DNA from: an uncultured Elusimicrobium sp.
GTDB taxonomy: Bacteria; Elusimicrobiota; Elusimicrobia; Elusimicrobiales; Elusimicrobiaceae
NCBI GenBank assembly: GCA_947305555.1
Contig: CAMZDW010000011.1
Coordinates: 1 to 33,008 of the forward strand
DNA length: 33,008 nucleotides
Direction of reading: 5' to 3'
The translations under genes and the position numbers were made by a program. The notes beneath the pieces are model-generated. The model searched no databases. It was not told the origin of the DNA and worked only from the letters and a program-made list of their open reading frames with translations. Below are positions 9,259 through 20,365 of this stretch, one piece after another; positions within the stretch are counted from its first letter, which is position 1; each line of letters opens with the position of its first letter.

Positions 9259-10591
9259 CTTAGCAACATACCCCGAATTAATTCCCGTTTTTAAAGATAT
9301 TGAAACTATTATCGGAAAGGACACGTATGACATGTGGCTTCGTCCCACTCATTTTTTGTATGAGAATACAACGCTTACCCTTTCCCTACCTAACCAATTT
9401 TGGGCACAAACTATTCGGGACCGTTATGAACGAATCATTATGGATGCTTTTTTAAAACATCTTGGAGTTAATATTACTATTATTTATGAAATTCAACCAC
9501 AAACTCCTTCTGTTACACCTGTTCCAAGACCTGAAGTTATTATTCCAAAAAATCCTTTTTCTTCCCGCTTAAATACGTCTTATACATTTGATAATTTTAT
9601 TGAATCTCCTTCTAACCGTTTTGCTTATAAAGCGGCTGAAGCTGTGGTCCATAAATTAGGTGCGCGGGAAAATAATCCGCTGGTAATTTATTCCTCTCCA
9701 GGTCTAGGAAAAACACATTTATTACACGCAATCGGTAACCAAATTCTCAAAGAACATCCCGAAACAAAAGTACTCTATATGTCCGGTGAAGAATTTGTGA
9801 GTGAATATATTGAAGCACTGCAAAATAAAGAAGCAGAAAGTTTCCGAAAAAAATACAGAACTCTGGATTGTTTCTTAATGGATGATATTCAGTTTGTATC
9901 CGGAAAAGAAGCGTGTACATTAGAATTTTTTAATACGTTTAATGCTTTATTTGAAAGCCGAAAACAAATTGTTTTATCTTCCGACAGAACACCACAACAA
10001 CTAGAATGGGATGAACGCCTTTCATCACGTTTATTATCCGGAATTATCACGGAAGTAAAGCGGCCAAATTTAGAAACACGTATTGCTATTTTACGCCAAA
10101 AACGTGATTCTATTAATTTTGATATTGGCGATGATGTACTTGCTTTTATTGCTGAAGGAATCCAAACTAATGTACGTGAATTAGAAGGCTCTTTATTTCG
10201 CTTAGTTGCTTACTGTAGCATGCATAGTGTAGTACCTACTATTTCGATTGCTAAAGAATTACTTTCAGATATTTTGGTTAGTACACAAGATAAATCCGTT
10301 AATGTAAACGTAATTAAAAAAATAGTAGGAAAACACTTTAATATTAAAATGGAAGATTTTAATTCTAAACGAAAAACACAATCTGTCGCTTGGCCGCGGC
10401 AAATTGCCATGTTTTTAACCACAGAATTAACCGATTTATCTTTACCGGAAATCGGCCGGGAATTTAACCGTGACCATAGCACGGTTGTTCATGCACGTGA
10501 TGTAGTGAAAGAAAAAATTGAAACAGATCCGTTTTTTACCGCTGAAATTAATCAAATTATAGCGGAAGTAAAAGCTGTGGATAAACCGTAA
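9251..10591 (+). CDS. dnaA: Chromosomal replication initiator DnaA
   Basis: A 446-residue AAA+ initiator that binds DnaA boxes and melts oriC. Domain I (about 8-85) is followed by a short proline-rich linker. The AAA+ domain has Walker A SSPGLGKT (148-155) and Walker B FLMDDIQ (208-214), and domain IV has the DnaA-box recognition helix with DHSTVVHA (408-415). The frame is open to a GTG at 9212, but I place the start at GTG 9251. AGGTGG (9238-9243) lies 7 bases before it, the promoter predicts an RNA start near 9228, and domain I then begins at a normal distance. The gene is AT-rich in third positions compared with gyrB and gyrA. Confidence 0.96.
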
Positions 10592-14719: not shown

Positions 14720-17236
14720 ATGAGTGAAGAAAATGTGAACCAACCGCAAACCCAGGACGTCAACGTCAATGTGGATTTGTTTGGTGATATTCAACAACGT
14801 GATATTGCCGGTGAAATGCGCTCGTATTACATCGATTACGCCATGAGCGTTATCGTTGGGCGTGCCTTACCGGATGTGCGTGACGGCTTAAAGCCGGTAC
14901 ATCGCCGTGTTTTGTATTCCATGAATGAGATGGGTTTAAAATACAATAAACCCTACAAAAAATCCGCCCGTGTAGTGGGGGACGTGCTCGGTAAATACCA
15001 TCCGCACGGGGATACGGCAGTATATGATACGCTGGTCCGTATGGTACAGGATTTTTCGCTCCGTAAACCGTTAATTGACGGACAAGGGAACTTCGGTTCT
15101 ATTGACGGAGATTCTGCCGCCGCTATGCGTTATACGGAATGCCGCTTGCAGAAAATTTCCGAAGAAATGCTGGGCGATTTGGATAAAGATACCGTCAAAA
15201 TGATTCCCAACTACGACGGATCTTTATTAGAACCCTCCGTTTTACCGGCCAAACTTCCGGCTCTTTTGGTAAACGGTTCTTCTGGTATTGCCGTCGGTAT
15301 GGCCACCAACATTCCTACCCACAATTTGGGCGAAGTGTGCGACGGAATTATCGAATACATCAAAAATCCGGAAATTACCACCAAAGAAATGATGAAAATC
15401 ATCAAAGGGCCGGATTTCCCAACGGGTGCTATTATCCGTGGGACCAAGGGAATCTACGAATATTTTGAAACGGGACATGGTAGCGTTAAAGTACAAGCTA
15501 CTACGGAAATTGAAGAACGCAAAGGTGGTCGTGAAGCTATTATTGTAACGGCCATTCCGTATCAAGTCAATAAAACGGCATTAATCGAAAATATTGTAGC
15601 GTTAGTACGCGATAAAAAAGTGATGGATATTGCCGATATTCGCGACGAGTCGGACCGCCGTGGAATGCGCCTAGTCATTGAAATTAAACGCGATGGTAAT
15701 GCTCAAGTGGTCTTGAATCACCTCTACAAACATACGCAATTGCAAACCTCTTTCCCGGTCAACATGTTGGCGATTGTGGATGGGCGGCCGCGTGTGTTGT
15801 CGCTCAAAGAAGTGATGAAAGCGTACGTTAAACACCGCAAAGAAATTGTCACTAACCGCACAAAATTTGATTTAAACAAAGCGCAAAAACGCGAACATAT
15901 TTTGAACGGGTTGCTCATTGCGATTGCAAATATGGACGAAGTCGTTGCCATCATCCGCAAAGCCAAAGACCCGACGGAAGCAAAGTTTACGCTCATGACG
16001 CGCTTTACACTTACCGAAGTGCAAGCACAAGCCATCCTCGATATGCGTCTGCACCAATTGACGCAATTGTCCGCGTTGGCCATTGAAAATGAACGCAAAG
16101 ATTTATTAAAACTCATTGAAGAATTGCAAGATATTTTAGCCAATCCTCAACGGGTGTTGGATATTATCGTAGCGGAACTGACCGAGCTGAAAAAAACGTA
16201 TGGCGATCCGCGCCGCACCGAAATCGGGCCGGATATGACGGATTTCTCGATGGAAGATTTCATTGAGAAAGAAGATGTAGTCATTACCATTTCCAATGAC
16301 GGTTACGCTAAACGCATCCCGGTTTCTACCTACAAGAGTCAAAACCGCGGCGGGAAAGGTATTATCGGCAGCAAAACCAAGGAAGAAGATTTTATGGAAC
16401 ACTTGTTCATTACTTCTTCTCATGCGACGATTTTGATGTTCACCAACCGCGGACGTGTGTTTGCCTTGCGTGCGTTTGAAATTCCGGAAGGGAACCGTAT
16501 GTCCAAGGGGAAAGCACTTGTTAACCTCTTGCAACTGAACGGAGAAGAAAAAGTAACCTCGGCCGTTGCCATTGAGGATTTTGATCCCAAACACAGCGAA
16601 AACACCTATTTGACCATGTGTACACGCTACGGCAGCATCAAACGCGTAGAATTGGCGGAATTTGCCAATATTCGCCGTGCCGGTATTATTGCGATGGGAT
16701 TGGAAGAAGGCGATGTGCTCATCAGTGTACAAATGACGTTTGGCAAGTCTGATATTATCGTAGCCACCAAGAACGGAAAATCCATCCGCTTTGATGAAAA
16801 TCAAGTGCGAGCCATGGGTCGTCCGGCCAAGGGTGTGCGTGCCATTAATTTGGGACAAGGCGACGTTGTCGTCGGTATGGAGCATGCTCCGAACGACGAG
16901 CCACAACCGGATGTGCTTTCCGTTTGTGAAAACGGCTTTGGAAAACGCACCGAATTTAGCGAATATAAACGCCAAAATCGCGGTGGCATGGGTGTAATCA
17001 CGATTAAGACAAGTGCACGCAACGGCTCCGTAGTCGGTATCAAGCTGGTTGATGAAAGCAAAGACTTAATGATTATTACCGAAAAAGGTATGACTATCCG
17101 CGTACGTTGCGCCGATATTCGCTCCGTCAGCCGTAATGCGCAGGGTGTAACGCTGGCGAAGATGGAACCGGGTGACAAGATTGCCCGTATTGCACCGGTG
17201 GTCAAAGAAGAAGACAAAGAAGAAGACGAAGAATAA
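14720..17236 (+). CDS. gyrA: DNA gyrase subunit A
   Basis: An 838-residue type IIA topoisomerase cleavage subunit. The catalytic tyrosine is Y138 in AAMRYTE. The quinolone region reads [11 protein letters not shown], so position 83 (E. coli numbering) is threonine (T99) and position 87 is aspartate (D103). Threonine at this position is also natural in some species and is not by itself evidence of acquired resistance. The C-terminal wrapping domain has a gyrA box variant QNRGGKG (541-547) in place of QRRGGKG. The presence of a box, though altered, and the gyrB partner next door favour gyrase over topoisomerase IV. The tail is very acidic (EEDKEEDEE). Confidence 0.96.
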
Positions 17237-17269
17237 TAACAAACTGTTCTTATGGTTTCGTAATTCGCA

Positions 17270-17300
17270 GCAAGGCGGTAACGTGAAGTTGCCGCCTTGC
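17270..17300. repeat. Strong imperfect hairpin after gyrA
   Basis: GCAAGGCGGTAAC (17270-17282) pairs with GTTGCCGCCTTGC (17288-17300) with a GTGAA loop. Twelve of the 13 pairs are Watson-Crick and one is G-U. No T tract follows, so it would protect the gyrA mRNA end or be part of a structured RNA rather than a simple terminator. Confidence 0.75.
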
Positions 17301-17487
17301 CTGCTATGAAGGGCCAACCATTTTCCAAAACTGTTTATTTTGTGCGCCCTTGCCAACTTGCTGTACCTCGCAGCACGGCTCGACGGACAACTGGCCGCGC
17401 AAATTAAAAGCGGTTTTGAAAAATCAGGTAATCTTCTACAAAGTTAGTCTGTTACGAACAACGGTTCTCAACTTCTAGGATTCACAA

Positions 17488-17520
17488 AAAAGGGACCCTT
17501 TTTTGTTGTCCCTTTTCTTT
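17488..17520 (+). terminator. Intrinsic terminator before the GH13 gene
   Basis: AAAAGGGAC (17488-17496) pairs with GTCCCTTTT (17508-17516), followed by CTTTCTTTT. It would stop gyrA read-through or end a small RNA from the gap. Confidence 0.72.
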
Positions 17521-19071: not shown

Positions 19072-19080
19072 GGAGGAGCT

Positions 19081-19335
19081 TTGGGATTCGGGGGTTTTTC
19101 TAAACAAGACCATCTGCAAATTTCTTCGTTGGGAATGGAATTTGCGGTAGCAGAGCTTTTAGGAATTGGTCTTGGATTTTGGTTAGATAGTAAGTGTGGA
19201 ACAACCCCTTGGATGTTACTGGTAGGAGCTGTAGTTGGTTTTGCGTTGGGATTTTATATTATTTTCCGCGCTGCCAAAGAAATGGAAAGACAAGCCCAGG
19301 CAGGTAAGGTAAAAAAAGACAATGGACGTAGCTGA
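19081..19335 (+). CDS. atpZ: AtpZ/AtpI-like ATP synthase accessory membrane protein
   Basis: An 84-residue protein with two membrane helices (about 22-38 and 44-64) and a charged tail, typical of the AtpZ/AtpI group. It ends one helix hairpin with FWLDSKCGTTPWMLLVGAVVGF, as AtpZ proteins do. Family members help assemble the c-ring or handle magnesium. The start is TTG, with AGGGAGG just before it; the alternative ATG at 19135 would remove the start of the family domain. Its 3' end overlaps atpB by 14 bases. Confidence 0.8.
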   Translation: MGFGGFSKQDHLQISSLGMEFAVAELLGIGLGFWLDSKCGTTPWMLLVGAVVGFALGFYIIFRAAKEMERQAQAGKVKKDNGRS

Positions 19336-20083: not shown

Positions 20084-20116
20084 TTTATTTACGGGCGTTG
20101 CCCAAAGGAGAAAAAA

Positions 20117-20344
20117 ATGGAACTTGTAGCACTTAAATATATTGCCGCCGGGATCGGCGCAGGACTGACCGTAATCGGGGCGGGCCTTGGTTTAGGTAAA
20201 ATCGGTGCGGCCGCCTTGGAAGGGACTTCTCGCCAACCGGAAGCAGGTCCGGATTTACGTACCACCATGATTATTATTGCTGCTCTGTTAGAAGGGGCTG
20301 CCATGTTGGGGTTAGTCATCTGCTTGCTTACGATGGTGATGTAA
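20117..20344 (+). CDS. atpE: ATP synthase F0 subunit c
   Basis: A 75-residue two-helix proteolipid with the conserved loop SRQPEAGPD (38-46) and the ion-binding carboxylate E59 in helix 2. Set against the sodium-binding c subunit of Ilyobacter, the ligand Q32 is leucine, S66 is glycine, T67 is alanine and Y70 is leucine. The sodium site is therefore absent and the ring is probably proton-specific. A strong AAAGGAG ribosome site, the best in the operon, fits the need for many copies per complex. A short GGGC-GTT-GCCC hairpin lies just before it. Confidence 0.96.
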   Translation: MELVALKYIAAGIGAGLTVIGAGLGLGKIGAAALEGTSRQPEAGPDLRTTMIIIAALLEGAAMLGLVICLLTMVM

Positions 20345-20365
20345 TAAACAACGGGAAAAACCGCT

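Follow-up and report, generated by a model that had tools for sequence, protein, structure and literature searches.

We analyzed a 33,008-nucleotide stretch of DNA (the window) from an Elusimicrobia metagenome genome (G000, 80% complete), in which dnaA, dnaN, gyrB, and gyrA lie in this order. In the region 9500–10250, the cumulative GC skew reaches its minimum, at ~9500–10000 inside dnaA, so that the replication origin probably falls within the window. At the protein level, GyrA is 97–98% identical to its counterparts in the uncultured Elusimicrobium genomes RUG14017 and RUG12698. The subject of this study is the block between the gyrA stop codon (TAA, 17234–17236) and an amylase-like gene (17620).

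A first-pass annotation had described a GC-richer, structured block behind gyrA and had offered small RNA, repeat, or remnant as explanations. The structured block is real, and the concrete claims that we took up all hold, except for the meaning of a short direct repeat. Its GC content is 46%, compared with 23–37% in most gaps of at least 60 bp; three other gaps reach 43–50%, and two of them (19072–19321 and 20084–20365) may hold short genes. The intrinsic terminator placed just past the block is likewise there and probably marks the end of the gyrA transcript. Further downstream, the amylase promoter is conserved in relatives both with and without the repeat described here. Table 1 lists the features of the locus.

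Table 1. Features at and around the block behind gyrA (window coordinates).
Feature	Position	Strand	Basis and remarks
gyrA, upstream gene	14720–17236	+	NCBIfam PRK05560.1 and TIGR01063, far over cut-off
Left module, AACAAAC from 1 nt past the stop	17237–17266	+	Extended alignment, 38 copies
Hairpin 1	17267–17304	+	Fold; no T-run behind it; no call in the terminator scan
Palindromic core, imperfect, ~127 bp	17317–17443	+	Covariance model R1, alignments
Right module, ATCTTCTACAAAGTTAGTCTGTTACG	17425–17456	+	Same sequence in many copies; outer boundary approximate
Second left-module-like stretch, AACAACGGTTCTCAACTTCT...	17457–17483	+	By eye only
Intrinsic terminator, T-rich tail to ~17519	17484–17506	+	Terminator scan; 10-bp stem
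Amylase promoter, TTTACA-17-TATAAA	17570–17598	+	Intergenic comparison, 52 relatives

Positions 17237–17456 are one copy of a dispersed palindromic repeat, which sits after the gyrA stop codon and ahead of the terminator. Each unit consists of a left module (AACRRC beside the stop codon), hairpin 1, a palindromic core, and a right module. The family motif of the left module is AACRRC ... TTCGTAACTTC; a pattern scan for the left motif that allowed up to three mismatches did hardly better than a reversed control. The 13-pair hairpin of the first-pass annotation (arms 17270–17282 and 17288–17300, 12 of 13 positions complementary) is part of hairpin 1, which folds as 16 pairs at −29.1 kcal/mol. 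Across copies, hairpin 1 is variable in sequence but still paired in most, and it is missing in some. The annotation's near-direct repeat, TCGCAGCA-x-GGC, is present at 17265–17276 and 17368–17379, where it connects an arm of hairpin 1 with the variable apex of the second hairpin; it is not kept in other copies and looks like coincidence. The larger second palindrome, which the annotation had missed, is the conserved core of the repeat family. From stop codon to core, the gyrA copy measures 77 nt. The right module overlaps the modeled end of the core, and the left-module-like stretch behind it is probably the start of the native gyrA 3′UTR.

Rfam gave no match in the window at gathering score. 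At E values up to 5, there were only chance-like matches over the terminator, the best being STnc250 on the − strand (35.8, gathering score 42). Rfam having yielded nothing beyond these, we dropped the small-RNA reading, against which the pairing data below also speak. We found no promoter-like site inside the block, and we expect that it is transcribed only as the gyrA 3′ untranslated region.

DNA-level searches of 61 genomes returned matches in 25. Many of these align with the block itself, and a single genome (G011) has as many as 12 places. Matches repeated within a genome cover query positions 66–222, and those from query position ~300 on represent only the conserved amylase promoter region. 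An iterated profile search of the loci led to 38 strong copies, 36 of which make up alignment A1 (L048, a duplicate of L111, and L018, a partial copy, were dropped); loci (L) and genomes (G) are numbered as sets that probably overlap in part. The covariance model R1, built from copies that it also counts, finds between 1 and 36 copies in each of 18 of the 37 genomes of the genus – 36 in G026, 22 in G011, 21 in G033, and 2 in G000 – and no copy in the 24 sister-family genomes scanned. Across the phylum, R1 matches occur in 30 of 294 genomes: 27 belong to the genus, 2 to another genus of the family, and 1 is distant, with two weak matches (best E 4.4e-6). A scan of viral contigs gave one match, on a phage-like contig (L197), which was set aside as chance (17.6 bits, non-palindromic in look).

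Might the block instead be a unique small-RNA gene, or random structured DNA? Its strong fold is compatible with that, as is the DNA-level search of its own genome, which gave one match only. R1, however, finds a second copy in G000 (contig C51:1789–1925, 82.5 bits), more decayed than the one behind gyrA, and both R1 and the DNA-level search of 61 genomes recovered the family in relatives. Two of the outcomes by which the annotation would have been refuted, a single genome copy and no conservation in close relatives, are thereby not borne out. These results and the pairing test below refute the reading and leave it next to no probability. With a family of dispersed copies behind gene stops, the block counts as a genomic repeat and not as an isolated small-RNA gene; of the options first offered, repeat is supported, in the form of a mildly decayed copy.

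Units stand in tandem in G034, G001, and G033, with a period of ~175–215 bp. On alignment A1, RNAalifold predicts 32 pairs, 22 of them with double changes. In the observed alignment, 94.6% of cells are paired, versus 72.6% in shuffles and at most 47.8% when slid; the covariation score is 0.530 versus 0.154 in the control, and 9 of 500 shuffles reach the observed number of pairs with double change. The A1 pairs include few one-sided intermediates. The two-hairpin plan is conserved, and the arms of the core have been rewritten with compensatory changes.

For a wider count, we used 71 of the 92 matches of a search over 70 sources chosen from the loci collected, having dropped by hand reverse-strand echoes of the palindrome, duplicate loci, and partial and weak matches. 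The modeled pairs of these copies comprise 2266 cells: 2094 Watson–Crick, 64 A.C, 36 G.T, and 72 other. Among 18 representatives at 75% identity, there are 8 G.T versus 12 A.C. If each distinct pair and type is counted once, A.C hardly exceeds G.T (21 versus 19), and we use the comparison only to deny an excess of G.U. The gyrA copy, on which R1 matches 17314–17447 with 105.1 bits, has 28 of its 32 modeled pairs in Watson–Crick form (median over the 71 copies, 30). A copy in L114 combines arms from two subfamilies, and its pairing is poor (21 of 32 Watson–Crick).

These counts bear on the reading of the block as a structured 3′UTR RNA element, an mRNA stabilizer or terminator-like structure that is under RNA-level selection and repeated by chance. 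Compensatory change in the core would suit such an element, as would the fixed spacing behind stop codons in sense orientation and the fold of 17237–17520, which reaches −95.1 kcal/mol on the + strand (z = −5.2, with none of 200 shuffles as good) and a z of only −2.9 on the − strand. Selection on RNA structure is, however, expected to favor G.U, and the non-Watson–Crick cells of the 71 copies show no G.U bias on the transcribed strand, where G.T falls below A.C. Moreover, close relatives carry no copy behind the same genes, and much of the genus has few copies or none. We regard this reading as unlikely. The missing G.U excess, with the scarcity of one-sided intermediates, points to a palindrome maintained at the DNA level and not as a selected RNA; it takes more than a strong fold and covariation to prove an RNA gene. 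The surviving mismatches are those more stable on the strand opposite the gene, which is only a hint.

Copies of the repeat lie in sense orientation just behind stop codons. In 46 of the 71, a frame of 90 or more codons has its stop beside the left module (37 TAA, 8 TAG, 1 TGA). When the test was confined to the 65 copies with at least 450 bp on both sides, a sense frame of at least 90 codons stopped 20–140 nt left of the core in 45, clustered at 70–85 nt; several copies that lack hairpin 1 have a distance of 36–42 nt. To the right of the core, stops on the opposite strand occur in 22 of the 65, at scattered distances. Copies with no sense stop nearby are second array units, are located close to gene starts, or lack a clear gene. 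The upstream genes include gyrA, rpsI, and parB (the latter two named by eye). Among the 67 copies with a downstream gene, raw counts give a pilin-like ORF as the next gene downstream in 19 and as the gene upstream in none.

Small genes beside copies recall an attC-like site of an integron or SALIN, with the pilin and lipoprotein genes as cassettes, and a long imperfect palindrome that conserves its pairing and little of its sequence would fit this too. Against it, no integron integrase (TIGR02249) exceeded the cut-off in the 16 copy-bearing genomes scanned, which gave Xer-like scores only and no tracking of the repeat. By eye, the copies lack the GTTRRRY/RYYYAAC ends that characterize attC, and the upstream genes gyrA, rpsI, and parB are not cassettes. 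The integrase scan largely refutes this reading, and we consider it highly improbable.

Pilin-like genes near repeats (L113, L026, L155, L161, L176, L235, L240, and others) have a promoter composed of TTGAC, a run of 10–14 T, and a −10-like box. Of the 16 distinct TTGAC/T-run promoters in the collected loci, 14 precede a pilin-like ORF; their T-run lengths are 10 (1), 11 (6), 12 (6), and 14 (1). From their sequence, these promoters look like a means of phase-variable pilin expression.

Close relatives differ in the presence or absence of the repeat at the same gene. In 52 relatives with both gyrA and the amylase gene, the gap is mostly 114–190 bp. In one of them, L031 (GyrA 97.5% identical), the gap measures 153 bp and contains no repeat; L032 (RUG12698), which is as close, has the left half of the repeat followed by a short lipoprotein-like ORF. 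In L048 (RUG129), a core behind gyrA is split by ~270 bp. Core copies in the same position were located by BLAST and from the sequences in L042, L069, and L085. A comparison of G011 with G083 concerns what we take to be a GGGtGRT-type gene, behind which G011 has a copy and G083 another terminator. Their 95.6% DNA identity reaches only as far as the stop codon, with no return over the 1.5 kb compared; since the whole downstream flank differs, flank replacement explains the difference as well as insertion does.

Direct repeats specific to a locus were scored for 68 copies, and the own-locus score ranks first in 13; such repeats can come from tandem duplication of units. The gyrA locus gave no signal (score 9, rank 34 of 68). 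None of the compared loci shows a clean duplication of the target site or an empty site from which both ends could be fixed.

We also considered duplication of the upstream gene end. At L121 (G019, contig C44), the C-terminal codons of the upstream gene (LFPTLKKLEE) recur just right of the core with synonymous changes, and at L003 the end of parB (KNKML*) recurs behind the copy, as it does in the relative L205. Over 45 copies, the own-locus mean is hardly above the cross-locus mean (9.2 versus 8.8), so gene-end duplication, though visible in these two cases, is not a general rule.

Other palindromes occur at gene ends in the same loci. A second type, GTTTCCAAATTTGAG ... CTCAAATTTGAAAAC, lies directly behind gyrA stops or native terminators in L042 and L069 (5519–5669 in both), L085 (at the gap start), L236, and L240; R1 scores it weakly (31.9 bits), and in L042, L069, and L085 it sits directly at the gyrA stop besides the core copies. 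A short dispersed palindrome, GTCATCCTGAACTTGATTCAGGATC or close to it, is nested in gene-end hairpins downstream in L003, L110, L112, L010, and L207.

No mobilizing enzyme was found among the three families tested, namely Y1 transposase, reverse transcriptase, and integron integrase. Besides the integron integrase, neither reverse transcriptase (PF00078, 22 genomes) nor Y1 transposase (PF01797, 23 genus genomes) has a distribution that tracks the repeat. The latter result concerns the reading of the repeat as a REP/REPIN-type element moved on one folded strand by a RAYT (Y1 HUH) transposase, to which palindromes, tandem units, and intergenic placement would lend themselves. In G026, moreover, an ORF that we take to be RAYT-like, from motifs judged by eye, adjoins a copy (L030:810–1322). 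PF01797, however, was detected in just 3 of the 23 genomes of the genus in that scan (a set that did not include G026); it is missing from G011, which is 99% complete and has 22 copies, and present in G002, which has none. The G026 ORF also appears by eye to have a different palindrome of its own. For the repeat, we judge this reading very unlikely. The palindrome beside the G026 ORF, GTAGGTCAGGCAC...GTGCCTGACCTAC, is GTAG-tagged and lies just upstream of it; together they are possibly a REPIN system in this phylum.

We conclude, with a probability of roughly 70%, that 17237–17456 is a copy of a palindromic intergenic repeat of the MITE/ERIC/YPAL kind, specific to its lineage and non-autonomous. 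The family shares with repeats of this kind several dispersed copies of a non-coding unit shorter than about 300 bp, and inverted repeats that can form a long hairpin. Copies presumably spread through a process at the DNA level that makes use of the folded or paired palindrome, the mobilizing enzyme being supplied in trans. The two copies in G000, mildly to clearly decayed, are probably immobile now. The gyrA transcript would read through the block as far as the terminator, and its 3′UTR would then fold into two strong hairpins; these could passively slow 3′–5′ decay, which would not be why the repeat is there. For gyrA itself, we expect an ordinary structured 3′UTR before a terminator. Strict placement at the stop codon in sense orientation is unusual for a MITE, and the repeat could have a 3′UTR function. 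A bolder proposal – miniature mobile DNA of a new class, inserting specifically behind stop codons in sense via one folded strand and contributing to gene-end turnover and the seeding of variable pilin genes in gut Elusimicrobia – strikes us as a long shot.

The family comes from a phylum of animal gut bacteria that has been little studied, and it is apparently undescribed: open-access literature on Elusimicrobia(ota) repeats or Avelusimicrobium, searched by title and abstract, held no description of it. Its palindrome arms are rewritten in concert at the DNA level without an RNA-type G.U signature, and it is strictly anchored at stop codons. With these two properties, the mode of movement – by a folded single strand or by double-stranded ends – becomes testable by comparison.

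Among known systems, integron attC sites are long imperfect hairpins in which structure is better conserved than sequence. The Elusimicrobia repeat resembles them in both respects, but no integron integrase came up in the 16 copy-bearing genomes scanned, and its copies lie behind housekeeping genes. Proteobacteria, Neisseria, and streptococci are the groups in which dispersed palindromic repeats are best known (PMC2229807). REP, BIME, and REPIN elements are similarly extragenic palindromes, sometimes in arrays; in contrast to REP/RAYT systems, no RAYT tracks the Elusimicrobia repeat in the genus genomes scanned, and REPs are 20–40 bp long according to the abstract of PMC3733652. ERIC (IRU, RU-1), likened here by description only, appears in PMC2759123 as a 127-bp intergenic repeat of enterobacteria; the match to the 127 positions of our core is a coincidence of length. 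A table in PMC2229807 gives ERIC TA ends and target duplication, whereas no TA-type ends can be defined here. Closest in kind, again by description, is YPAL (RU-2) of Yersinia, a palindromic, intergenic unit of ~168 bp that is not A+T-rich, has 3–26 bp duplications beside its dyad symmetry, and is reported to be coexpressed with upstream genes, possibly affecting their RNA stability (PMC2229807); it is listed among stem-loop families in PMC2267715. The Elusimicrobia repeat shares with YPAL the palindromic intergenic unit and differs from it in its two hairpins, its stop-codon-anchored left end, its tandem units, and its place in another phylum.
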